A stretch of 64,000 nt of DNA from Candidatus Delongbacteria bacterium (lineage in GTDB: Bacteria > UBA4055). A model generated the notes under the pieces. It ran no database searches. It saw only the letters and a list, made by a program, of their open reading frames with translations, and was not told the origin of the DNA. A program made the position numbers and the translations under genes. The stretch lies in the NCBI GenBank assembly GCA_016937995.1, contig JAFGVM010000016.1, forward strand, positions 155,332 to 219,331, in the 5' to 3' direction. Positions 2,109 through 60,974 of the stretch are shown in pieces (positions within the stretch are counted from its first letter, which is position 1; the number at the start of each line of letters is the position of its first letter).

Positions 2109-3956
2109 TTAAAAAGAAGTAAGGTCAGATAAATATTTCACATTGAACTCAATCCTGTGAAATCTGTCCGAATCGATCTCATCATAACCTGAACCTATAG
2201 TTCCAGAGTCAGATGTAGAATCTTCTGAAATGCCGAAAGTAAATAAAATATCCCTGTAGCTGTATGAAACAAAACCGTAGATGCTCTTACCGGACCCTGA
2301 ATAAGATATCAGTCCCGGATACAGACCAATGTCATAAAGTCCTGCATACATAATTGTCGACCCTTGTGTGAAATATACATCGGCTCCAAGTCTTATCAAA
2401 AATCCCTCACTAAGATCCATGGTGAAAGTTTGAGAGAACAAATATCCATATCCATCATCGTACCAATCTGAATATTTAAAGTAACTCGATACTTTCGATC
2501 TATTAAAATTGTATTGAATTTTTAATCTTGAATCAATTTTGTTAATTGTTGAATAAAGATCATCATCGTATATCTCATAGTTCTTATATTTACTCTGACA
2601 ATTTAGAGAAATATTTCTATTCGTAATATCCAGTTCAGCCTTAACTTCTCCCCCGGGTAAATATCCTGTATCATACTCAGAACTAAAATAATTACTGCTA
2701 AAAATAAAATTTACTCTTTTGTACAGGTTACCTTTAACTTTGAATCCTATGCTGTTCTCCTTATCACCATCACCCTGTTTTAAAATCTGAGATGATAAGG
2801 ACAGTCGATCCTTCTCTATCCTGCTTAAATACATACCTGTCTTAAGTTTACTGGATGTAAATGATGAACTCAGGATAAAATTATTTTTACTCAGATCTGT
2901 TGCATCGCTGAATTGTATAATGAAGTTATTTTTAAACTTTTTTTTGAGCTGAAATTCGCCAAGAATACCACTATGCAGCTCGGAATTATCTGCAAGTTCT
3001 TTTGAGTAGGTTTCCTCCGAAACGGATATACAACTTGAAAGATCATTATATATGAACTGATAAGAAATACCTTTTAAAAAATGCTTCTCATTGTGATAGC
3101 GTTCTATTTCATTCACAGTTCTGGTATAGGAATTAAGGTTTACCGAATTTATTAAATTATCTGATGTAAGTACGACAGAAACTGGCTTCTCACCGTAGAA
3201 TAATGCAATATTTGAATTACGAAATTCCTGAGATACATAAAAGCCGTTGAACCCGTAATAATCCATACTGGACAAGCTTGATCTCGCAGGATCTTGGAAC
3301 TTGAAACTTTGTTTCAAAGCAAATGGATCGATGAACATAGATTCATACTGCAATAAGCCTGTTACAGAGAAAAAACTGAAATGACCGAGAATGATCTTGG
3401 AACCAGTATTTGTATATTCCAAAGAAAACTTTAGATTATCTGTGTATGAGATCTCCCCTGCTTCTTTTTCAGTAAGAAAAGACAGCTGCATATTATCAGT
3501 TTTAACCTTGATCTTGTTCAAATAATAGCTTTGATTTCCTAAATAATTAGAGTCCTGATAACCGATAGTTTTTTCCAGAAGTCTTTTTGTTCTGAACTGG
3601 TATGTTAGATCATTTTTTACAGGACCTTTTTCTTCATACACTATCATTTGATCAAGCAGCTTTGCAATATCATCAGTAATTATTCCCTCTGAGACAAGAT
3701 TATTCAAGTCTTTTATCCTGTCTGACTTGGAGATACTGTCAAAGATCTCAGAAGCTGTTATTTCATCGATATACGGTAATGAATAAATTTCATATTCTGA
3801 GGCTGTGTTGATATTGATAGGATTTGATCTGAAATGGTCGAACAGACTTGTAAGTGACTCTTCATCCAGTTCACTTTGATCTATCGCTGATAAAAATACG
3901 GTTATCAGTAAAATAGCCAGAATTACATTATATCTCATAAACGATACCGACCGCAT
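2109..3956 (-). CDS. Secreted helix-hairpin-helix protein with outer-membrane barrel-like body
   Basis: The 615 residues begin with a signal peptide and then a ComEA-like helix-hairpin-helix segment at roughly 35-100. It contains NPININTASEYEIYSLPYI followed by a second repeat (IKDLNNLVSEGIITDDIAKL). The remaining 500 residues are amphipathic, rich in Tyr/Ser/Phe, and look like many beta strands of an outer-membrane barrel. Proteins of this build (short HhH region, then a barrel) occur in Bacteroidetes/Chlorobi-type genomes, and their role is not established. A later ATG at 3938 (MRYNVILAILL) gives a cleaner signal peptide and cuts the overlap with the upstream gene from 29 to 11 bp, so it may be the true start. 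Last gene of an overlapping trio with xerC and the gene at 3928-4716. Confidence 0.65.
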   Translation of the reverse strand: MRSVSFMRYNVILAILLITVFLSAIDQSELDEESLTSLFDHFRSNPININTASEYEIYSLPYIDEITASEIFDSISKSDRIKDLNNLVSEGIITDDIAKLLDQMIVYEEKGPVKNDLTYQFRTKRLLEKTIGYQDSNYLGNQSYYLNKIKVKTDNMQLSFLTEKEAGEISYTDNLKFSLEYTNTGSKIILGHFSFFSVTGLLQYESMFIDPFALKQSFKFQDPARSSLSSMDYYGFNGFYVSQEFRNSNIALFYGEKPVSVVLTSDNLINSVNLNSYTRTVNEIERYHNEKHFLKGISYQFIYNDLSSCISVSEETYSKELADNSELHSGILGEFQLKKKFKNNFIIQFSDATDLSKNNFILSSSFTSSKLKTGMYLSRIEKDRLSLSSQILKQGDGDKENSIGFKVKGNLYKRVNFIFSSNYFSSEYDTGYLPGGEVKAELDITNRNISLNCQSKYKNYEIYDDDLYSTINKIDSRLKIQYNFNRSKVSSYFKYSDWYDDGYGYLFSQTFTMDLSEGFLIRLGADVYFTQGSTIMYAGLYDIGLYPGLISYSGSGKSIYGFVSYSYRDILFTFGISEDSTSDSGTIGSGYDEIDSDRFHRIEFNVKYLSDLTSF

Positions 3957-4716
3957 GAGAATATTCTAGATCGAAATGATATGAAATCGCATAGGAGAAC
4001 TGGTATTTTAAATATCTGATCGCAAAACCCGAATTAACACACTTAGGTTCAAAATTGTATCCCGCTGACAGAACAAAAGCATCAATTGGTTTATAGCTTA
4101 TACCGGTCTTTATATTAGCTTTATACCTGTCATCTTTCTCCAGACCCAGATAAACATCTAGCGTATTCAAAGATCTGTAATGAAAATTCAGGAACATTTC
4201 CATTGGTATATCTATATTATCATTTTCGTAAGCATAAAGGTTTTTTATTGAACATATGACTTCCAGATCATCAACTATTTTATAAAAAGCAGTTAGATCA
4301 ACTCCTGCGGTATAACTATTTTTAAACTCAGTATGCAGATAGAAAAGCGATATTCCCGGACTTATCGTTAGATCATCAGTATGAAAAATTGATGAGGAAA
4401 GCTGAAGAGTATTTTCTCTGTAGGTACTGTTCCCGAAATTAATGACTCTGATATAAGAATTCTTACCTAGTACTTTAGTTTGAAATGCAACATCCTCACG
4501 GGAGAATTCAGTGATACCGTAAGGGTGAAGAAAATTTAGGGATAGATATTTTTTGTCTGTATTTAAAGCAGGTATGGTTGTATCACCTGTTTGGAATCCC
4601 GAGACATTCCCTGAAGCGATCGTTTGAGGAGATATTATAATATTTTCTAATGAAGCGAAAATATTTCCTGCAAAGATCATTAACGACATATAAAATAATA
4701 TCTTCCTCAATATCAT
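3928..4716 (-). CDS. Exported PorV/PorQ-like outer-membrane protein
   Basis: The 262 residues start with a signal peptide (MILRKILFYMSLMIFAGNIFA). The mature part is made of alternating strand-like segments. Its C-terminus (SYHFDLEYSHAVGIVYEI) resembles the last strands of PorV/PorQ/UPF0164-type barrels, which commonly end in 'LG.SH.VGISY'. The start overlaps the stop of xerC by 4 bp, so translation is probably coupled. The 3' end overlaps the next gene. The barrel assignment comes from pattern only, and the specific function is unknown. Confidence 0.6.
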   Translation of the reverse strand: MILRKILFYMSLMIFAGNIFASLENIIISPQTIASGNVSGFQTGDTTIPALNTDKKYLSLNFLHPYGITEFSREDVAFQTKVLGKNSYIRVINFGNSTYRENTLQLSSSIFHTDDLTISPGISLFYLHTEFKNSYTAGVDLTAFYKIVDDLEVICSIKNLYAYENDNIDIPMEMFLNFHYRSLNTLDVYLGLEKDDRYKANIKTGISYKPIDAFVLSAGYNFEPKCVNSGFAIRYLKYQFSYAISYHFDLEYSHAVGIVYEI

Positions 4717-5612
4717 TCCCCTTTCGGATGTGCTTTTTTATATACTGCTTTCAATCTTTCCAGTGAGACATGAGTATATACCTGTGTCGTTGACAGACTT
4801 TCATGCCCTAGAAGCTCTTTAACTGTCATAATATCAGCTCCCTGATCAAGCATATGCGTCGCAAAAGTATGTCGTAAAATATGAGGTGATGTCTTATTCA
4901 CTGTTGCCAGTCTTTTCAGTTTATCTCTGACGATCCTCTGTATCTGTCTTTTTGACAGGTGTTTTCCATTTTGCGAAATAAACAGATAATCGGTCTCATT
5001 TTCATTCTCAGATAAAATATCTTTTCTGAATGACAGATATATTCTGTATTTCCTTTTTATATGATCAGAAACAGGCAGTATTCTCTGCTTGGAACCCTTT
5101 CCAAATACAGATATAGTACCTTTTGTGTGATTTATCGTGTAAACTGTCATATCATAAAGTTCACTGAGACGGATCCCTGTACCATAAAAAAATTCAAATA
5201 TCAGACTTTCCCTTGCTGAGAAGAAATCTCCCTCATCAAAGCTTTCCATAATATTTTTCATCTGCACTGTACTTACGAATTCAGGCAATCTTTGCTCAGT
5301 TCTGATAGAATTTATCGTAGAACCAACATCTTTTTCAATAATATTATTTCTGAACAGGTAATTGAAAAAGCTTTTGAATGAGGCGATCCTTCTGTTGTAG
5401 GTTTTCTTTGAAAGTTTTTTTAATACCATATCTCTCAGATATGGCCTGATCTTTTCCTTTGTGATCTCTTTAATGTTCAGATCAACCTCAGATCTTTTGT
5501 AAATGTATTCATAAAGGTCCAACAGATCAGTTCTGTAACCTTTTATAGTATTTTGAGAATAATTTCTTTCGTTATTCAAATATTTTAAGAACTCTTCAAT
5601 AAGATCTTTCAT
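4713..5612 (-). CDS. xerC: Tyrosine recombinase XerC
   Basis: A site-specific recombinase of the kind that resolves chromosome dimers at dif together with XerD. It has 299 residues, the usual length, with an N-terminal SAM-like core-binding domain (about 1-95) and a C-terminal catalytic domain. All catalytic residues are visible: R148 (GTGIRLSEL), K172 (GKGSKQR), H244 and R247 (HILRHTFATH), H270 (LLGHESL) and the nucleophile Y279 (QVYTHVS). The C-terminus, ending in AYKKAHPKGE-like sequence (residues 290-299), resembles Bacteroidetes XerC. The second Xer protein at 17106 fits XerD better. First gene of an overlapping cluster with two envelope genes. Confidence 0.9.
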   Translation of the reverse strand: MKDLIEEFLKYLNNERNYSQNTIKGYRTDLLDLYEYIYKRSEVDLNIKEITKEKIRPYLRDMVLKKLSKKTYNRRIASFKSFFNYLFRNNIIEKDVGSTINSIRTEQRLPEFVSTVQMKNIMESFDEGDFFSARESLIFEFFYGTGIRLSELYDMTVYTINHTKGTISVFGKGSKQRILPVSDHIKRKYRIYLSFRKDILSENENETDYLFISQNGKHLSKRQIQRIVRDKLKRLATVNKTSPHILRHTFATHMLDQGADIMTVKELLGHESLSTTQVYTHVSLERLKAVYKKAHPKGE

Positions 5613-6296: not shown

Positions 6297-7166
6297 TTAA
6301 TTCAGTTTTTCAAGCTTGACCAATGCACCGGCGACCCATGTCGGTTTAGGTTTTTCATAAATTATGCTCATATCATCGCTGACAACATCCAGTATTTCAC
6401 TCTTAAATGATCCAATTAAATATCTGAGTACCTGACCGACATCCCTTGCATCACTTTTACTTTTGACACTGAATTCATTATATGCCGAATAGTCACCTTT
6501 TGAAAGTATATCCAACCCTTTGTTTATGGTAATTTCAGCAAGTTGAAGACCACCTTGTTCAGGTTCTAGTGCCAACCCGATCGGATCACCATATCCCGCA
6601 CCATGATGAAAAAGATCACCTGTAGCAACAATTACCGCATTGCTGAATTGAGCTTTCAGCTCTTGCATCCCCGGTATCTTATCAGGTGAACCTCCTGCTA
6701 AATATGGGTATCTTAAGATTAATTCAGGAGATTTAACATTTCTTCTTTTGATCTCCTCGTTCCAAAGAAATAAGAAATTTAGCAAAGAGAATTCGTTTTC
6801 CCATTCTTTTCTAAAATCTAATCCCGGACCCTGGATTCCCCAGAAAACTTCTTTTTTAGGATCACCACCGTATGCAACACGTTTTCTGGCATCATCAAGT
6901 TCTTTCGTTAATGCGTGTAGAACTCCAAGTACGATCACCTTATCTTTTCCACTGTTCAAACAGGCATGAACAACCGCAGCTGTCTGATGACCGCAAATTT
7001 CTATATTACTATGTGGGAATATTAATGATCCTCCTGATCTAAGCACGTCAGCAAGATCCCATTTCATACCCTCATTTAAAATTTCGTCAATTTGTTCTTT
7101 TTTTAAGTTAGAATGCCTTTTTATGGCTTCCTGTTTGAAATCAGGTATAATATTTTCCATATTCAC
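6297..7166 (-). CDS. Memo / AmmeMemoRadiSam protein B-like protein
   Basis: The 289 residues show spaced histidines resembling the Memo fold, which is related to class III extradiol dioxygenases. An early segment reads LIFPHSNIEICGHQTAA, then VLGVLHA, then ATGDLFHHGAGYGD in the second half, where Memo proteins usually have a 'SSDFSHYG' motif. Memo-fold proteins bind a metal through such histidines, and their bacterial role is uncertain. The N-terminal 40 residues look helical and are not typical. The gene is divergent from hemW, and there is no amino-terminal signal peptide. The family call rests on motif pattern only. Confidence 0.55.
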   Translation of the reverse strand: MNMENIIPDFKQEAIKRHSNLKKEQIDEILNEGMKWDLADVLRSGGSLIFPHSNIEICGHQTAAVVHACLNSGKDKVIVLGVLHALTKELDDARKRVAYGGDPKKEVFWGIQGPGLDFRKEWENEFSLLNFLFLWNEEIKRRNVKSPELILRYPYLAGGSPDKIPGMQELKAQFSNAVIVATGDLFHHGAGYGDPIGLALEPEQGGLQLAEITINKGLDILSKGDYSAYNEFSVKSKSDARDVGQVLRYLIGSFKSEILDVVSDDMSIIYEKPKPTWVAGALVKLEKLN

Positions 7167-8718: not shown

Positions 8719-9360
8719 CTATTTGGCTTTTTTATCACCCCAGATAAGTTTATGCAACTGTATCTGATATCTTACATTCAATTCATCACTCAATATTTTT
8801 TCCGCGAATTCTTCATCTGATATATTTGAGTTAAAAACTCTTGATACCAGTATTGAGCGATCAGTTTCTAAATTGTTTTTTTTTATAATATCCTTCATTT
8901 CATTATAATCAAAAAAGTCCGATAAAACAAACTTTATTTCATCTTTTTTTGTAAGAATTTTAAAATTTTCCGTTAAAAAAGAGTCTGATTCTCCTGAACT
9001 GTGGAGTTTAATATCAACAATTTTGACAACTTCATCGGGAATATTCTTCAAGGAAATTGATCCATTCGTTTCCAGTAATATTTTGTATTCCCTGGCGATC
9101 AATTGTTCGATCAAAGGTATCAATTCATCTTTTTGTAGCAGAGGTTCCCCACCGGTGAACTCTATCAAATTAGTGTTAAATTTTTCAATGATCTTAAGAA
9201 GTTCTTCGGCACTGTGATCTTCACCTTCGTAGTATGCATATGCAGTATCACACCAACTGCATCTTAAATTACAGCCAGATAATCTTACGAAAGTACAGGG
9301 AAGTCCCATGTATGAGGACTCTCCCTGTAACGATCTAAATATCTCATTAACTTTGATCAT
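8719..9360 (-). CDS. queE: 7-carboxy-7-deazaguanine synthase
   Basis: A radical SAM enzyme that converts carboxy-tetrahydropterin to CDG in the preQ0/queuosine pathway. The 213 residues start MIKVNEIFRSLQGESSYMG, the typical QueE opening with the substrate-binding QGE. The cluster motif is C30-x3-C34-x2-C37 (CNLRCSWC), followed by FTGGEPLLQ. The start lies 10 bp from the stop of the long gene upstream, suggesting one transcript. No other queuosine genes are in the window. Confidence 0.92.
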   Translation of the reverse strand: MIKVNEIFRSLQGESSYMGLPCTFVRLSGCNLRCSWCDTAYAYYEGEDHSAEELLKIIEKFNTNLIEFTGGEPLLQKDELIPLIEQLIAREYKILLETNGSISLKNIPDEVVKIVDIKLHSSGESDSFLTENFKILTKKDEIKFVLSDFFDYNEMKDIIKKNNLETDRSILVSRVFNSNISDEEFAEKILSDELNVRYQIQLHKLIWGDKKAK

Positions 9361-9369
9361 ATACGATGA

Positions 9370-11775
9370 CTAGTAAATTTCATTTTCCTTATCAAAGACC
9401 AGATTGACAAATTTATCATTTTTCAGATCTGAATTTTCGTTGACAGAAACCAACCCCTTAAGGTTTTTAGATGTGCTTACAGTGTTAAATATCATCTCAG
9501 GTCCTGAACGAACTATGTAATTGAAAGAATTTACTTTAATGTCCTGATTATTGTCAGGGTCCATCAAGTCTTTAATTTTATCAAGCATACTTTGATATTC
9601 GTCCGTTCTATCTGTTGGTACAAGAATAAGGTTATTCGTGAAGACCTTATTCTTTATGACCATATCCACCTCTGCTTTCTCAAAAGGAATAAGAAATATT
9701 ATTGGTGAATCTGTTGAAAATTTCTTATAGAACTCGTACTCATCAACAAAAGGTTCCACGTTCTGAATACTTCTAATGAACAGCTCTTTATCCTCAAAGT
9801 GATCTCCCCAGCTTGATCCGAAATTAAGCAACTTGTTAATTTCTTTGTTAACAAGACTGAACGTTGAATCCCCTGAAACGATCGGATAATTTACACCAGC
9901 AGAAAATAACTCCTGAAGAATATGCTGCTGCTGACCTATCATATCGGAAAAGATGAAAACCTGCTTTCCATCCTGAAGCTTTTCTTTGATCTGATCTATC
10001 GGCATAGGTAAAACTTCATCATGAGCATCAAGATCAGATTTAAAGAATATGTAATTATACTGCATCATGTCTACATCAGCACCTTTAAGCAAGCCGGATG
10101 ATTCCTGACAAATATTGCTTAGGTATACGACATTTTCGCTTGAATCCCTGATCTCTACTATTGAAGCTCCCGGTATACATCCCGCGTTAAAGAATTTAAT
10201 ATTTATGAGCCCCTTGAAATTATAACCTTTACCCTGAGGAGTGATCCTTATGACCCTTTCATTTACCAGATCTATCTCCTGCTTTGTAAATTCAGTCTGA
10301 GTATCACTCATACCTATAACGGTCGAGTTGATTACTTTCATCCATTTGATCCTTGATACCTTATAAGTGATATCTGAAGTAAACAATTTCGCATTTGGAT
10401 TCTTCGCCATGATCTTTGGGATCAGATTCAACTTGTCCTTTCTTGCATCAGTTAAAACTACAATGTCAAGATCATCACCCTCGTATGTCTCAGAAGGGTC
10501 GATAAGTATTTTTACACCTGTCATTTCCAGCAACATAGATTCATTGAATTTTTTTGTGCAAAGACTGGTTGCTTTCAGGTAGTTGTCCTTATCTATAAGG
10601 TCAATTTTATTTTTCCTTTTTTCATACCTGGATAAAATCGAACCGTTAATATCACCGTTATACTCAATATACTCAATTTGGAACGGCATAGTGCCTAATT
10701 TAGCCTGATTTTGAAAGTACTGATCAACTGACTCGATGAGTTCCTTATTTCCGGTATAGAATATCAAATATTTCGCAGAGAGTTTCTCAAAGATCAAATA
10801 TTTAACTGTGAAATTCTCATTCAGTAGTGAATGTTGAAGCTTAAATTGAAGGATCATAGTATCAAGTTTCTCTTTGATAAAAATGTAGTTCTGATAAAAA
10901 CTGTTCAGATAGCTTAAATTTTTACCATCCTCAGGTACGACCACTATATTATGCTCAAGATATATTTTCTCTTTGACTTCATTGAAAACTTTAAGCAGGT
11001 TCTGATAGAATTTGCCATGATTAGTATCCGGTTCGGAGATAAAGTTGATCACGTACCCGGTACCTAATTTAAAGTAGATATCGAGTATCCTGTCCGTTAT
11101 CGACAACGATACACCTTTGTTCTCAAAGATTATTCTGTCGAATAATGTCTCATTCCTCTTTAAAAAGTCTATTACGATCTCTTTTATCTCCACTGGTGAT
11201 AGATTACTTTTTCTCACCACATAATTTATAACTTTTTTCTCTTCGATCACCGGCTTTGATGAAGCTTCATCTTTTTTTGGTTCTTCTTGTAAAAATTCTC
11301 CTCTAATGGTATTCTTTATAAAAATTTTTAGATCTTGTTTAAGTGTTTTAATGTCATCCTTTTTTTCATTCAACAATTCTTCAATTTCTTTTTTTACTCT
11401 GGAGGTTAATTCTATTTCACTTGTGTTTAAAATATTTTCATAACAGATGATATCATTTAAGTTAGATTCTATTTTATTCAATTCAGAGTAATCTGTCACA
11501 TAATTTACTACATCCTTTCCATCACTGTCAGTGTCAAATTTTATAAAACTATCAGATATATCCTCTAATATCCGTTTTGATTCTTTCAGTAAATTTTCAT
11601 TCATCTCTCTGATTTTCTCAGGCATTTTTGAAAAATCCTCAGATTCAAGATACTGAATAGTTTTCTTACTCTCTTTCAACTTTGATAAATAATCTTTATC
11701 AACAGCTATTCCTTTCACCAGTTCCAGAATTTTTTGATTCATAATTTGCTCCATTATATGATTTATAATTTTCAA
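9370..11775 (-). CDS. Large protein resembling a catalytically inactive metallo-beta-lactamase/beta-CASP factor
   Basis: Has 801 residues and is not clearly a known family. Residues 1-175 are charged, helical and probably coiled coil. About 190-390 is mixed alpha/beta. About 397-640 follows the order of a CPSF/RNase J-like metallo-beta-lactamase fold: CTKKFNESMLLEMTGVKILI (406-425), then VVLTDARKDKLNLIPKI (439-455) where active enzymes have LTHxHxDH. Next come AGCIPGAS (531-538) in place of GHIPGS and YLSNI (551-555) in place of the GD motif. A beta-CASP-like stretch follows (QVFIFSDMIGQQQHILQELF, 605-624). Most metal ligands are replaced (H443>D, H445>R, H448>K, H533>C, D554>N), so nuclease activity is unlikely. 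No signal peptide. An internal ATG (MNQKI, residue 12) is an alternative start. Cotranscribed with queE by spacing. Confidence 0.5.
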   Translation of the reverse strand: MKIINHIMEQIMNQKILELVKGIAVDKDYLSKLKESKKTIQYLESEDFSKMPEKIREMNENLLKESKRILEDISDSFIKFDTDSDGKDVVNYVTDYSELNKIESNLNDIICYENILNTSEIELTSRVKKEIEELLNEKKDDIKTLKQDLKIFIKNTIRGEFLQEEPKKDEASSKPVIEEKKVINYVVRKSNLSPVEIKEIVIDFLKRNETLFDRIIFENKGVSLSITDRILDIYFKLGTGYVINFISEPDTNHGKFYQNLLKVFNEVKEKIYLEHNIVVVPEDGKNLSYLNSFYQNYIFIKEKLDTMILQFKLQHSLLNENFTVKYLIFEKLSAKYLIFYTGNKELIESVDQYFQNQAKLGTMPFQIEYIEYNGDINGSILSRYEKRKNKIDLIDKDNYLKATSLCTKKFNESMLLEMTGVKILIDPSETYEGDDLDIVVLTDARKDKLNLIPKIMAKNPNAKLFTSDITYKVSRIKWMKVINSTVIGMSDTQTEFTKQEIDLVNERVIRITPQGKGYNFKGLINIKFFNAGCIPGASIVEIRDSSENVVYLSNICQESSGLLKGADVDMMQYNYIFFKSDLDAHDEVLPMPIDQIKEKLQDGKQVFIFSDMIGQQQHILQELFSAGVNYPIVSGDSTFSLVNKEINKLLNFGSSWGDHFEDKELFIRSIQNVEPFVDEYEFYKKFSTDSPIIFLIPFEKAEVDMVIKNKVFTNNLILVPTDRTDEYQSMLDKIKDLMDPDNNQDIKVNSFNYIVRSGPEMIFNTVSTSKNLKGLVSVNENSDLKNDKFVNLVFDKENEIY

Positions 11776-17105: not shown

Positions 17106-18005
17106 ATGAAAAAACTTACAGATATACTTGAGATCTATTACGATCATCTTTTGTTTGAGAAAGGATTATCTGAGTTAACTCTGGAATCATACAGCAACGA
17201 TCTAAACAGATATATAAAGTATCTTTCTGATAAAAATATTTACACTCCTGATGATGTCAAGGTTAGTGATATCAGGTATTTCATTACTGAATTGAACGAG
17301 ATCGGACTAAATGTAAATTCTGTTATCAGAAATCTTTCATCAATAAAAAATTTTCATAAATTCATCGTAACTGAAGATTACTCACCAGTCAATCCATCAC
17401 TTCATATTGAAACACCCAAACATCCAAAGACACTTCCGGAAGTAATGTCTGTCCAGGAAATAGAAGAACTGTTTAAACTTCCGGATCTGGAAACTCCATT
17501 AGGGTTAAGAGACAGAGCAATGCTTGAAATTATTTACGCCTGCGGTCTTAGAATTAGCGAACTGATCACAATAAATTATAATTCGGTAATATTTTCTGAA
17601 AAGATCGTCAGAGTTATAGGAAAAAGAAATAAAGAAAGGATCGTTCCAATAGGTAATAGTGCTTTGGATCATCTACAAAGATATTTAGACGAAGCAAGAC
17701 CTGAACTGGCGGTCAAAGGTAGAGCTGGTGGTACGTTATTCCTTAATTTCAGAGGAAACCCGATCTCGAGAATGGGTTTTTGGAAAATTGTCAGAAAATA
17801 TATTGAAATGGCTCATCTGAACATAAAGATCCACCCTCATACTTTCAGACATTCATTTGCAACCCACCTACTAGAAGGTGGTGCTGATCTCAGGTCTGTT
17901 CAGGAAATGCTTGGTCATGCTGATATTACTACGACACAAATTTACACCCATATTGATAGAGAGCATCTTAAACAGGTTTACAAACAGTTCCATCCAAGAG
18001 GATAA
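17106..18005 (+). CDS. xerD: Tyrosine recombinase XerD
   Basis: Partner recombinase for dimer resolution. The 299 residues have an N-terminal core-binding domain and a C-terminal catalytic domain with R149 (CGLRISEL), K173 (GKRNKER), H245 and R248 (HPHTFRHSFATH), H271 (LGHADI) and Y280 (QIYTHID). The ending QVYKQFHPRG is typical of XerD. Start ATG at 17106, 9 bp after the exporter stop, so it may be read through from the exopolysaccharide genes. The XerC of the window is at 4713-5612. Confidence 0.9.
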   Translation: MKKLTDILEIYYDHLLFEKGLSELTLESYSNDLNRYIKYLSDKNIYTPDDVKVSDIRYFITELNEIGLNVNSVIRNLSSIKNFHKFIVTEDYSPVNPSLHIETPKHPKTLPEVMSVQEIEELFKLPDLETPLGLRDRAMLEIIYACGLRISELITINYNSVIFSEKIVRVIGKRNKERIVPIGNSALDHLQRYLDEARPELAVKGRAGGTLFLNFRGNPISRMGFWKIVRKYIEMAHLNIKIHPHTFRHSFATHLLEGGADLRSVQEMLGHADITTTQIYTHIDREHLKQVYKQFHPRG

Positions 18006-24547: not shown

Positions 24548-25501
24548 ATGTCACAATTTCACAGATTGGTCTATATCGATAAAATGATCAAAGAGTTCGG
24601 TCAAGTTACAAAAAAACAAGTCATCGATGAATTCCAGGTAAAAATTGGTACAGTAAAAAATGATTTCAGATACATGAAATTTGAAGTAAACTCTCCGATT
24701 GTATATTCTAGAAAGAAAAAGGCTTATCATTATAAAGATGACGGATTTGAACTATTCTCATTTAGACAAGAGAAGATCTTTCTCTTCTTTGTTTTGTTGA
24801 AGCAATTACTTCACCACGAAACATTAATGCCACTTGATCCTACAAATATACTCGAACTGATAAAAAGGGATGTCGATCCTGAATATTTAAAACTCGAGAC
24901 AAAAATAAGTTATGAGCTTTCAGAATTTGAATATCCTGATATGGAAAAGTTTGCAAGAATAGTCGGTTCGATGCTCAGGAAGTTCACTCTCAACATAAAA
25001 TATCTCGGTGCTAAAGGTAAAAAGTCATCTAGGGCAATTGAACCTTTCCATATTTTCTATTATCAGGGAAAGTGGTATGTATTAGCTCATTGCAGAAAGA
25101 AAGATGAATTAAGAATGTTCTTATTGTCAAGAATAGTAAAGATCGATGATAAGAACTCAGAAAAATTCAGTTGTAAAAGATATAAAGCTAAAGAGCTAAG
25201 AGATTTCTTGAATGACAGTTTTGGTATAGCACGGGGAAAAGAAGCAGATACCGCAGTAATAAGATTTTATGAACCTGTAATGTACCATATTAGAGATCAA
25301 AGGTGGCACAAGGATCAAAAAGTTAAAGTTGTAGACAATGATAAAGAAAAATATATTCAATTCACTCTTCCGGTTGCAAAATATGAAGAATTAGTCGGCA
25401 GAGTTCTCCGCTTCTCCCCCGATGCTGAGATCATTGCACCTCAAGCGATGAGAGAAATGTGGCTTTCAAAACTAAAACTATCTCTAAACAAGTATAATTA
25501 A
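24548..25501 (+). CDS. WYL-domain transcriptional regulator
   Basis: The 317 residues have an N-terminal DNA-binding region at about 1-60 (VTKKQVIDEFQVKIGTVKND), a linker, and a WYL domain at about 145-215. The WYL domain includes AIEPFHIFYYQGKWYVLAH and the following LSRIVKI. A C-terminal extension (WCX-like, about 230-310) ends in AQAMREMWLSKLK-like sequence. WYL regulators bind nucleic-acid or nucleotide ligands and often control defence or stress genes. A clear ribosome site AGGAG lies 7 bp before the ATG. It sits directly upstream of two long palindromes and a Fic gene on the same strand, so it may regulate them, though the Fic protein itself could do so too. Confidence 0.88.
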   Translation: MSQFHRLVYIDKMIKEFGQVTKKQVIDEFQVKIGTVKNDFRYMKFEVNSPIVYSRKKKAYHYKDDGFELFSFRQEKIFLFFVLLKQLLHHETLMPLDPTNILELIKRDVDPEYLKLETKISYELSEFEYPDMEKFARIVGSMLRKFTLNIKYLGAKGKKSSRAIEPFHIFYYQGKWYVLAHCRKKDELRMFLLSRIVKIDDKNSEKFSCKRYKAKELRDFLNDSFGIARGKEADTAVIRFYEPVMYHIRDQRWHKDQKVKVVDNDKEKYIQFTLPVAKYEELVGRVLRFSPDAEIIAPQAMREMWLSKLKLSLNKYN

Positions 25502-25685: not shown

Positions 25686-26762
25686 ATGAATTTCGAATTA
25701 AAACCATTACCCGTATTGGGTGTTGATCTGGAAACAAAGAATATTTTAAAAAAATGCGCAACAGCAAATCGTTACCTGGCTGAGCTGAAAGGAATATCCG
25801 GTACTATTCCAAACCAGCAGATATTGATAAATACATTATCAATACAGGAAGCAAAAGACAGCTCTGAGATCGAAAATATCATTACAACTCATGACGAACT
25901 TTTTAAAACAGAACTGTTCCCTGCTGCAAAATTTATCAATCCGGCGGCAAAAGAAGTATCTGATTATGTTTCTGCATTAAGAAAAGGTTACGAACTTGTA
26001 AAACAGAACGATCTTCTGACTACAAATAATATAATCGATATACAGTCGGCACTGGAAAGGAATAATTCAGGAATAAGAAAATTACCCGGAACTGTTCTGA
26101 AAAATGAAAAAACCGGTGAAATAATATATACTCCCCCTCAGAATTATTATGATGTTATCAAATTGCTGGATAATCTTGTAAGATTTATCAATGATGATGA
26201 ATTATTGCATGTTGATGATCTTATAAAAATGGCTCTAATCCATTATCAGTTTGAAAGTATTCATCCTTTTTATGACGGTAACGGTAGAACCGGGAGAATA
26301 ATAAATGTTCTTTATCTTGTGCTGAAAAATATGCTGGATATTCCGGTCTTGTATTTAAGTAGGTATATTGTGCAAAATAAAAAAGAATATTACAGTTTGT
26401 TACAGGAAGTCAGGGATAAAGATAATTGGGAATCCTGGATACTTTTTATGCTTGATGCAATTGAAAATACATCAAAACAAACTATCACGAAAATACAGGA
26501 AATAAATGAAGCATTAATGTCATATAAACATCAGATAAGAGCTAAATATAAATTTTACAGTCAGGATTTGATAAACAATCTATTTTTTCATCCATATACA
26601 AAGATTGAATTCATACAGAAATCACTTAAAATAACAAGACTAACTGCAACAAAATACCTAGATGAGCTGACAAAAGGTGGTTTTTTAAATAAAGAAAAAA
26701 TCGGAAGATCCAATTACTACATTAACATAGCACTTTTTAGAATTTTGAGCAATAATATTTAA
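25686..26762 (+). CDS. Fic-family protein with inhibitory helix and C-terminal winged helix
   Basis: Likely an AMPylating (or related nucleotidyl-transferring) enzyme. The 358 residues carry the catalytic Fic motif H193PFYDGNGRTGR204 complete. An N-terminal inhibitory motif of the form [S/T]xxxE[G/N] is present (S59-SEI-E63-N64), the class II arrangement in which the glutamate blocks ATP. A hairpin 'flap' is likely around 135-150 (TGEIIYTPP). The C-terminal part at about 295-350 (HPYTKIEFIQKSLKITRLTA, DELTKGGFLNKE) looks like a winged helix, as in DUF4172/Fic-HTH proteins. That domain could bind the palindromes just upstream and autoregulate. Ribosome site GGTG is weak. Confidence 0.9.
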   Translation: MNFELKPLPVLGVDLETKNILKKCATANRYLAELKGISGTIPNQQILINTLSIQEAKDSSEIENIITTHDELFKTELFPAAKFINPAAKEVSDYVSALRKGYELVKQNDLLTTNNIIDIQSALERNNSGIRKLPGTVLKNEKTGEIIYTPPQNYYDVIKLLDNLVRFINDDELLHVDDLIKMALIHYQFESIHPFYDGNGRTGRIINVLYLVLKNMLDIPVLYLSRYIVQNKKEYYSLLQEVRDKDNWESWILFMLDAIENTSKQTITKIQEINEALMSYKHQIRAKYKFYSQDLINNLFFHPYTKIEFIQKSLKITRLTATKYLDELTKGGFLNKEKIGRSNYYINIALFRILSNNI

Positions 26763-57804: not shown

Positions 57805-60800
57805 TTACTTCGTTAAAATCATCTTTTTAGTAATACTCGTACCATTTGCCTCAAGAGTATAGAAATACATACCTGAGTTAAAATTACTTGCATCAAAGCA
57901 AACTGTATGAATTCCTGCTTCTTTACTTTCATTTACAAGCTCTGAGACTAATTGTCCATTGATGTTATAGACACATAATTTCACATCGCTTGCTGTCGGT
58001 AATGCAAATTTTATTTGTGTAACTGGGTTAAATGGGTTCGGATAGTTCTGATACAATGTATGCTCTGTAGGTAAAGTCGTACCAGTTATATCAGATTTGT
58101 CTTCTCCACCTTTATTTGCACTTTCAGTTAACTTATCAAGCAGATCGTTAAGATTATCTGAGTGATCTACAGTTGATCTACCTTTGCCCTGATTCTCAAG
58201 ATCTTTTAACATATTGGCTATGCCTATATTGATTTCTGCCAAAATAATCTCTTCATCATTATCAGCTTCTGCTTTCATCTCTTCAGCTACTACAATTGCA
58301 TCATCGAATCTTTTTCCCTTTATATGTGTTGCGACTTTCCTTCCTTTAAAGAATTTTTTATGTGATGTTTCTTCTGATGCAATAGCGGCATCGTACATAG
58401 TAATAAGTTCGTTATTATCCAGTCCTTCCTGCTCATACAAATAAGGCAATCTTGACATAGCAACATAGTATTCAGGTGTATCAACATATTTATCGATAAT
58501 ATGCTCATACAGATTTATAGCAGGATTGATCTTATCATTCGATTCTAGATTTAAAGCATTCGAAATAATTCTGCTTTCTTCAGATATTGACTGCATAATT
58601 TCTGATTGTACAATATCAGTACCACATGGAGCTGAGTAATATGGTGTATAATCAAGTGTATAATTAGGATGGTCGTAGAAATAATCATCATCAATTACCT
58701 CATAACCCCAGAAATTATATTGTACATCCATAACTATATATTGATCTCTAATATCTTTTTGACCTATTGAGATTGCAGGGAAATTCGGACTTGAATATAC
58801 ATCGTTATTTCTCATATAAATATTACCTGTTGGGTTTATACCTATATGTGCACTTGGAAATAGAGATGAATTACTTTCATAAGCATTTTTTTCAAAAACA
58901 CAGTTCGCACTTTTATAAATTGGTATTTGATCTTCTGTACTGATAAGTAAAGGCATAGCATCATTTCCGGAGATGACCATACCGTAATGTTTACTATATG
59001 TCATTTCACAACCTGAAACAACTGGTGAACAAAGCAAAAAATAAGTTCCAATATTGAAGTGAGTAATATTGTTATTACTGAATGTACCATCAGCACCGGT
59101 GATCATTATACCTGTTCCTTCATCAGTGCCATACAATGTATTATTTTCAATTATATACTTGTATCCTGAATTCATACTCAACAGATCAATTCCGTTTACA
59201 CAGTTTTCAAAATCAGAATTGGTTACTTCAAATTTCATCATTCCGTCACCCTGAATAGCAGTAACAGCATCATGTATATTTACACTGTTTAAAGTAACTG
59301 TACTACCTGTAAGACAATTTATACCCAGCCAGTAGCCTAAAATATCAGTACATGAAAATGTTGTACCATTTGCTAATAGTTCTCCTTTATTCATAACTAC
59401 GATCTCTGCACCTTCCGATGCTTCAATAACGGATCCTGAATTTAGAATAAGGTCAGCATCATTTTCTACAACTAATTTTGAATCAGTTCCTAAATCAATA
59501 TTCGAGCCTGCCAACATAATAAAATCTGATATCTGTAAATGTAATTCTGAAGAATTTGCTATATCTAATTTTGCATTTTCAGGAAATTTTATATCCCCTA
59601 TTATAGATGCATTGCCTTCTACTTCTACGATTGCACCAGGCTCAATTGTTAAGTTACTACCGTAGTCGATAAAAATCTCTGAAGCATCTTTTAATTTTAA
59701 CACAGCTCCACTTTGAACAACTAAATTATATCCAGATGAAATATTGATCTTGCGACCTTCTAATAAAGTTGTATGTGAATTGTCAATCAGGATCAGATCA
59801 TTATTTACTACATTAAGGTCAGCTGATATACCCATCAAACCTCTTAATCTATAATCTGCATAATTGTTGAAAATTAATGTAGGATACAACAAGGAAGTAG
59901 TTGAACCAATGTTATCTTGGTCTGAAAAAACTGACTTTTGTGTAATTATTGAGTTATGATTATCTAACCAAATTGAACTTTCTTCAATTGTAACTACACC
60001 ATCATAGTTAATATCAGTTTCTTCCATGATGTTAAACCATTCAAAATCAGCACTTGCTGATGGTCTCTGATATTCGTATGGATGATCCCCAATATTTCTT
60101 CGTACTTCATCTAGAGCAAAAGGTCTATTCCCTGCTGTTGATGTATATAAATGTACAGTGAATTCATCATGATAAACACATTCATCAGGATAAGCTTCAA
60201 ATAAATGCTCAAATTCTATACCTGTCCCAAACGAATAAGACTGTTCTGTCCATGCTTTATCATCTGCTAAAGTTGATTCTTCAGTCATTTTACAAGCACT
60301 ATTCATAATTTTGTTACTACCATCACTCATAAGTTCAAAATCGTCAATGAAATTCTCTGAATGACATTGCCCCAACCAAAATACTTTTTTATTAGCAGGA
60401 ACAAGTTCAATAATATCTGCTAAATCATTATCACTTATTGTAGGTCGATAAAATTCATAAAATGGTTCCTCATATATGAGCATAACACCCTCTTCTGGTT
60501 GGTCTTCTTCAAATTCATAACCACCGTGTGAGATAGTAGAAACCAATAAGAAATCATCTTGGGTCATAACAGTTGACAATGAATCAAATATGTCTTCAAT
60601 GTTTTCAATTGATGCAGATGAATAAGCTAGTTGTTTAAAATCTTCACTTTGCTCTTCATAGTTGAATCCATATTCTTGGTAATAATCCATCCAGTACTGA
60701 TCGGGAATCATATATGGTTGTCCAGCTTTCAATGGATAATCTTTTCCATTTGCGTATAAAAAATATACCTTGTCAGGTGAAAAACCTTGGTCTTTCACTA

Positions 60801-60974
60801 ATAAATGCCACATTAATACTGTATCATTCCACCATTTATAATAAATAGCTTTTTGTTCATATCGGTCTTATTGTATCTGTCATCTCCAGTTATTACTACA
60901 GCATACTTGTCTGCACAGATTATTTTGCTAACCATAATGAGCATTAGCACCAACATTATTAGTTTCTTTAACAT
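57805..60974 (-). pseudogene. Caspase/legumain-like protease with beta-helix and sorting tail, frameshifted near the N-terminus
   Basis: The long frame (57805-60813, 1002 residues) lacks an N-terminus. A second frame from ATG 60974 supplies a signal peptide and KYAVVITGDDRYNKTDMN, then runs to a stop. One extra A in the A5 run at 60850-60854 would join them and read AIYYKWWNDTVLMWHLLV, so a 1-base deletion (mutation, phase switch or sequence error) is likely. Domains: a caspase/C13-like fold with catalytic His in VSTISHGGY (about 94-102) and Cys in FWLGQCHSENF (about 145-155), then an EF-hand-like DINYDGVVTIEE. Next are right-handed beta-helix repeats (about 330-650), a helical repeat part, and a C-terminal sorting tail with LYQNYPNPFNPVTQIKF and GMYFYTL. 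Probably a cell-surface protease when intact. Confidence 0.7.

Follow-up and report, generated by a model that had tools for sequence, protein, structure and literature searches.

Can a bacterial protein carry the motifs of a CPSF/RNase J-like nuclease in the right order when the residues expected to hold the metal have been replaced, and what might such a protein then do? This question is raised by a gene in a 64,000-nucleotide stretch of a Candidatus Delongbacteria genome (the window), whose product had been read in the first-pass annotation as a probable catalytically dead metallo-beta-lactamase (MBL)/beta-CASP protein. Its reading frame at 9370-11775 (-) is real, being open over that entire span as first described; however, the TTG at 11775, with which it had been taken to begin, is probably not the true start. 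The ATG at 11742 fits better because a GGAG lies six bases 5' of it and the same start is found in homologues. From this preferred ATG, the gene occupies 9370..11742 (-) and encodes a 790-aa product, whose residue numbering is used throughout. A genome search recovered one copy in the host.

At the sequence level, the window protein matches the Pfam model Lactamase_B_6 (PF16661) above its curated cut-off (29.2 vs 27 bits, 7.4e-7), and five of the 12 family members are matched by this model at E<=0.1. A phmmer search of PDB sequences with the window protein returned no match, and the models PF10996 and PF07521 for the beta-CASP and C-terminal part found none anywhere in the host genome. Comparison of the family with three active bacterial beta-CASP RNases by hhalign gave a probability of 95.5% (E 1.6e-8), and an active bacterial homologue was also matched directly at E 4.5e-4. 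The hhalign register aligns motifs 1 to 4, pairing LTDARKDK with LTHAHYDH, AGCIPGA with AGHILGS and YLSN with FTGD, although its residue alignment is unreliable beyond position 613. Since motifs 2-4 are in this way independently paired with those of active RNases, their order is not a matter of chance.

The AF2 model, built from 12 sequences (pLDDT 78), was used for a Foldseek search, which returned the MBL/beta-CASP fold as the first-pass annotation had anticipated, with CPSF73 and CPSF100 among the matches. The best match was 2ycb (E 2.6e-23), and KH-CPSF chains took ranks 1-8 (down to 5.8e-20), followed by type VII Cas14, INTS11, TTHA0252, CPSF73 and CPSF100. VIA-align gave Z values of 31-32.6 over residues ~385-790 for the top rows, mostly across 340-395 residues at ~3-3.5 A, with aCPSF1, TTHA0252, CPSF73 and Cas14 as the high-Z targets. 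Because this alignment covers ~385-790, the model also has the inserted beta-CASP domain and the C-terminal part of the MBL fold. The core had been placed at 397-640, where the motifs do stand in the right order, but it runs on to the C-terminus (385-790). Pfam, hhalign, the AF2 model, Foldseek and VIA together delimit a full MBL/beta-CASP/MBL core at residues 384-790 (9373..10593 (-)), and the complete predicted fold and the sequence homology place the protein within the superfamily. In these model-based comparisons the Z values are tied among sub-families; the core fold alone gives no nearest one.

The hhalign and family alignments locate the altered metal site within this core. In motif 2, LTDARKDK replaces LTHxHxDH at residues 430-437 (10432..10455 (-)); in motif 3, GCIPGAS replaces GHxxGA/S at 521-527 (10162..10182 (-)); and in motif 4, SN replaces GD at 542-543 (10114..10119 (-)), its context being YLSN (540-543) with N at the expected D. 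D415 of motif 1 is retained and invariant. The motif-2 HxH pair and the motif-3 His are absent from all 12 members. The HxHxDH segment, DARKDK in the window protein, becomes [ND]-[AS]-[RKL] followed by variable residues across the family; the motif-3 His position is taken by C, S, A, V or L, and the motif-4 Asp column by N, Y or V, with D only in the two deepest of the 12 members. The final motif-2 residue is His in six of 12. Such ligand remnants in some members point to an active enzyme as ancestor. A single His column (H607) and no Cys column are conserved over the 12 members, and the beta-CASP/C-terminal part, where motifs A-C of an active nuclease would lie, including the stretch beyond the alignment limit at 613, has no conserved His except H607. 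In addition, most members share a [ST][ND]AR signature in the motif-2 loop, which suggests that the site was rebuilt rather than merely lost, and the core has invariant polar stretches (ITPxGKGYN 500-508, TSDI 455-458, NFGSSWGD 640-647 and DEYEFYKKFS 667-676). Sequence, predicted fold and family-wide replacement of the ligands (12 of 12) bear out the original reading: the window protein is almost certainly a catalytically dead MBL/beta-CASP member.

Two further segments precede the core. Residues 1-165 (11248..11742 (-)) form an acidic, mostly helical and poorly conserved arm, as judged by AF2 secondary structure, a heptad test, charge and dN. This region had been described as a coiled coil at 1-175, of which a modest heptad signal above shuffles survives (a moderate contrast of 0.65 for residues 16-60 vs 0.39, sd 0.10, in shuffles), but the model has several helices (2-9, 16-34, 42-60, 88-106 and 114-151) and no single continuous coil. 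Residues 168-384 (10591..11241 (-)) are predicted to form two tandem KH-like alpha/beta domains, as judged by conservation, AF2, Foldseek and VIA. The pair, at ~168-384, had been overlooked in the first reading. It is the most conserved part of the protein (75% mean column identity) and is modelled as two tandem alpha/beta domains with a pLDDT of 81. Sequence searches of PDB and Pfam with this region yielded nothing credible and no KH family, and the GXXG motif is absent from both domains. Archaeal KH-CPSF sequences that could be aligned with it were also sought on plasmids, but the matches listed there were bacterial. By fold, the first domain alone best matches RbfA (Z up to 8.0), and the second has aCPSF1 KHb (~6), S3 and NusA among its matches (Z 5.4-6.2); OsmC-like and secretion-ring domains score similarly to the KH types against the pair. 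Foldseek with the pair recovers 2xr1, 2ycb and 9bct over ~200 columns, spanning both domains, at E 0.01-0.04. These fold matches, taken with the full-length result, make a KH-like identity of 168-384 likely. The suggested likeness to aCPSF1 holds in that KH-CPSF chains head the Foldseek rows and a pair of KH-like domains stands in front of the core, but the KH match alone is weak. Charge was considered as a sign of RNA binding and proved uninformative, the core being neither more nor less acidic than its active homologues.

The distribution of the family was established by searching the genomes of its own phylum and by a profile search of 386 genomes, comprising 13 Delongbacteria and 373 other bacteria. 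The gene is present in 12 of the 13 Candidatus Delongbacteria genomes, including all nine of good quality; the sole one with no detected copy (G002) is 79% complete. No member was found in the 373 other bacterial genomes, where the profile picked up a single protein (7.4e-9), an active RNase whose site is intact. As far as sampled, the family is not spread over FCB candidate phyla but is phylum-specific, and it is near-universal in Delongbacteria. One contig (L023, PDON01000054.1) matches genome G004, from the host's family, and its Candidatus Cloacimonadota label is probably outdated. The 12 distinct members align over their full length and share 38-73% identity with the window protein. For the closest pair tested (L018/L019), dN is 0.051 and dS 0.65 (dN/dS about 0.08), with the ratio falling to about 0.04 for the KH-like pair; dN is lowest at residues 168-384. 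Purifying selection on the gene is therefore strong, and a decaying pseudogene was rejected on the grounds of the ratio of about 0.08 and of a reading frame that is intact in 12 genomes. Within the limited literature searched, we found no account of this family or of any bacterial KH-CPSF that is catalytically dead.

Eukaryotic 3'-end machines are known to contain dead beta-CASP subunits next to an active twin, and a helper role like that of CPSF100 had been entertained for the present protein. For the host genome this role is excluded: in addition to the missing PF10996 and PF07521, a protein search for a homologue of the active enzymes found none at E<=0.1, and with no active beta-CASP protein detected, the analogy with a CPSF100/CPSF73-type heterodimer does not hold there. 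More broadly, PF10996 (beta-CASP) and PF07521 (RMMBL) are both absent from 10 of the 13 Delongbacteria, host included; the other three genomes carry them in a single intact YSH1-type beta-CASP RNase (L034, L067 and L068 in G005, G009 and G010). The 10 genomes with neither an RMMBL nor a beta-CASP match apparently have no RNase J either. RNase Y is found in all 13 Delongbacteria and RNase E/G in 11; Rho is itself present in 12 of 13, and the protein was rejected as a stand-in for it.

What, then, does the protein do? We put at about even the chance that it is a dead, phylum-specific beta-CASP protein acting as an RNA/RNase scaffold; the scaffold mechanism taken by itself we hold to be slightly short of even. 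Under this mechanism, the KH-like pair and the emptied cleft of the core would hold RNA and/or RNA-processing proteins, and the acidic helical arm might be the docking site for a partner, for example the RNase Y or RNase E/G machinery. The protein would accordingly be a specificity or scaffold factor, neither a nuclease nor one subunit of a beta-CASP heterodimer in the manner of CPSF100. The further proposition that the phylum turned an ancient KH-CPSF-like nuclease, of the type terminating archaeal transcripts, into a core non-catalytic RNA-processing/transcription factor with no active beta-CASP partner is doubtful. Against the RNA/RNase scaffold stand the acidity of the arm, the lack of GXXG in a KH-like pair with Foldseek E values above 1e-3, and the fact that the top genomic association is with queE and not with any RNase gene.

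Some of the same features would suit a scaffold that binds proteins and plays no part in RNA biology, its fold being retained purely as a platform: the KH-like domains are degenerate and devoid of GXXG, there is no conserved His/Cys site and the helical arm is long. We nevertheless regard this as fairly unlikely, since constraint is greatest in the KH-like pair and nearly all members of the beta-CASP family act on nucleic acid.

The main competing lead is the linkage to queE. The next gene downstream (8719..9360 (-)) encodes a 7-carboxy-7-deazaguanine synthase, QueE, called from TIGR04349 and related models, all below their cut-offs, together with the radical-SAM family. All 12 genomes with the pseudo-nuclease gene (the host and 11 others) have queE as the same-strand gene immediately downstream, mostly overlapping it or within about 25 bases; the spacing reaches a few hundred bases in G004. 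The linkage is kept in the deep lineages G004 and G007 despite different surroundings; most of the other genomes have ribD, a sugar transferase gene and a capsule export gene upstream in divergent orientation. As tRNA-guanine transglycosylase is also found in 11 of 13 Delongbacteria, the protein might act alongside QueE in queuosine/7-deazaguanine metabolism as a binding subunit, perhaps with tRNA as its ligand. This role is unlikely, however: QueE is a widespread enzyme with known stand-alone activity, adjacency is in itself no proof of joint function, and G002 has the transglycosylase and no copy of the gene that could be found (at 79% completeness). Also against it, no preQ1 riboswitch lies nearby; control through queE by such a riboswitch was discarded, tRNAs being the only Rfam matches.

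Other parts of the window also drew attention. Three ORFs (2109-3956, 3928-4716 and 6297-7166) have no Pfam or NCBIfam match, and the order of the first two is kept beside a tyrosine recombinase gene in L052. Two XerC/XerD-type tyrosine recombinases are encoded in the window, at 4713-5612 and 17106-18005. A Fic protein (25686-26762), which combines Fic_N with a SoFic-like C-terminal domain, adjoins a WYL-domain regulator (24548-25501), and a 1002-aa protein (57805-60813) ends in a Por_Secre_tail domain, used for type IX secretion sorting.

The many invariant polar residues of the core and the new [ST][ND]AR signature of motif 2 could also be read as signs that the old cleft has acquired another catalytic activity, one for which the zinc ligands are not needed. 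We consider this improbable: no beta-CASP enzyme is known to us to act once deprived of its metal ligands, and no cofactor motif was recognized. That the protein remains a zinc nuclease whose ligands have been shuffled is highly improbable: the motif-2 final His (6/12) and motif-4 Asp (2/12) speak for an active ancestor, but the HxH pair and motif-3 His survive in none of the 12 members, in which His is conserved in a single column and Cys in none.

Among known systems, RNase J shares the superfamily fold (Z about 24) but scores below the CPSF-like members, and the host genome has no RMMBL match. Type VII CRISPR Cas14 shares the core fold (Z 32.6), and one member alone (L014:3117-5486) matches the Cas14 model NF045584 (E 3.8e-10). 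Unlike Cas14, however, the Delongbacteria gene sits among housekeeping genes; with 38.8 bits vs a cut-off of 800 and no recognized cas gene nearby, a Cas14-like CRISPR effector was rejected. The bacterial YSH1-type RNases (TTHA0252; L034, L040, L013) have a homologous core (Z about 31), but they keep their own intact HxHxDH site and have no KH-like or helical domains. CPSF100 and INTS9, which pair with the active paralogues CPSF73 and INTS11, resemble the window protein in being beta-CASP proteins devoid of catalytic ligands and under selection (Z 26.8 for yeast CPSF-100, 2i7x); they differ in that no active beta-CASP partner was found in the host genome or in nine other Delongbacteria.

The archaeal KH-CPSF (aCPSF1/FttA; TIGR03675; 2ycb, 2xr1, 3af5, 9bct) appears, by predicted fold, to share the order KH-KH-MBL-betaCASP-MBL, an arrangement described as unique to archaea (PMC3095777), where aCPSF1 occurs across phyla (PMC8653824). 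It functions in terminating transcription, alongside RNA polymerase and Spt5 (PMC11616081), its traits being a C-terminal homodimer, U-rich RNA binding and contact with RNA polymerase/Spt5 (PMC3095777, PMC11616081); its KHa is also devoid of GXXG (PMC3095777). In contrast, the Delongbacteria protein is bacterial, has lost the catalytic ligands, shows no GXXG in either KH-like domain and has an extra helical arm in front. None of the 12 members matches TIGR03675 at E<=1, and its cut-off is reached in none of the 386 genomes. As far as sequence matches tell, KH-like domains followed by beta-CASP are an unusual order for bacteria, because the best listed bacterial TIGR03675 matches start at model position 116 or later and are missing most of the KH part. 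Given that Rho is present in Delongbacteria, the dead KH-CPSF-like protein is no replacement for bacterial factor-dependent termination. A bacterial phylum thus keeps a dead beta-CASP protein, mostly with no active twin, whose domains appear to be ordered like those of the archaeal termination nuclease, and the family offers a test both of the non-cutting roles of the beta-CASP fold and of the KH-CPSF arrangement outside archaea.
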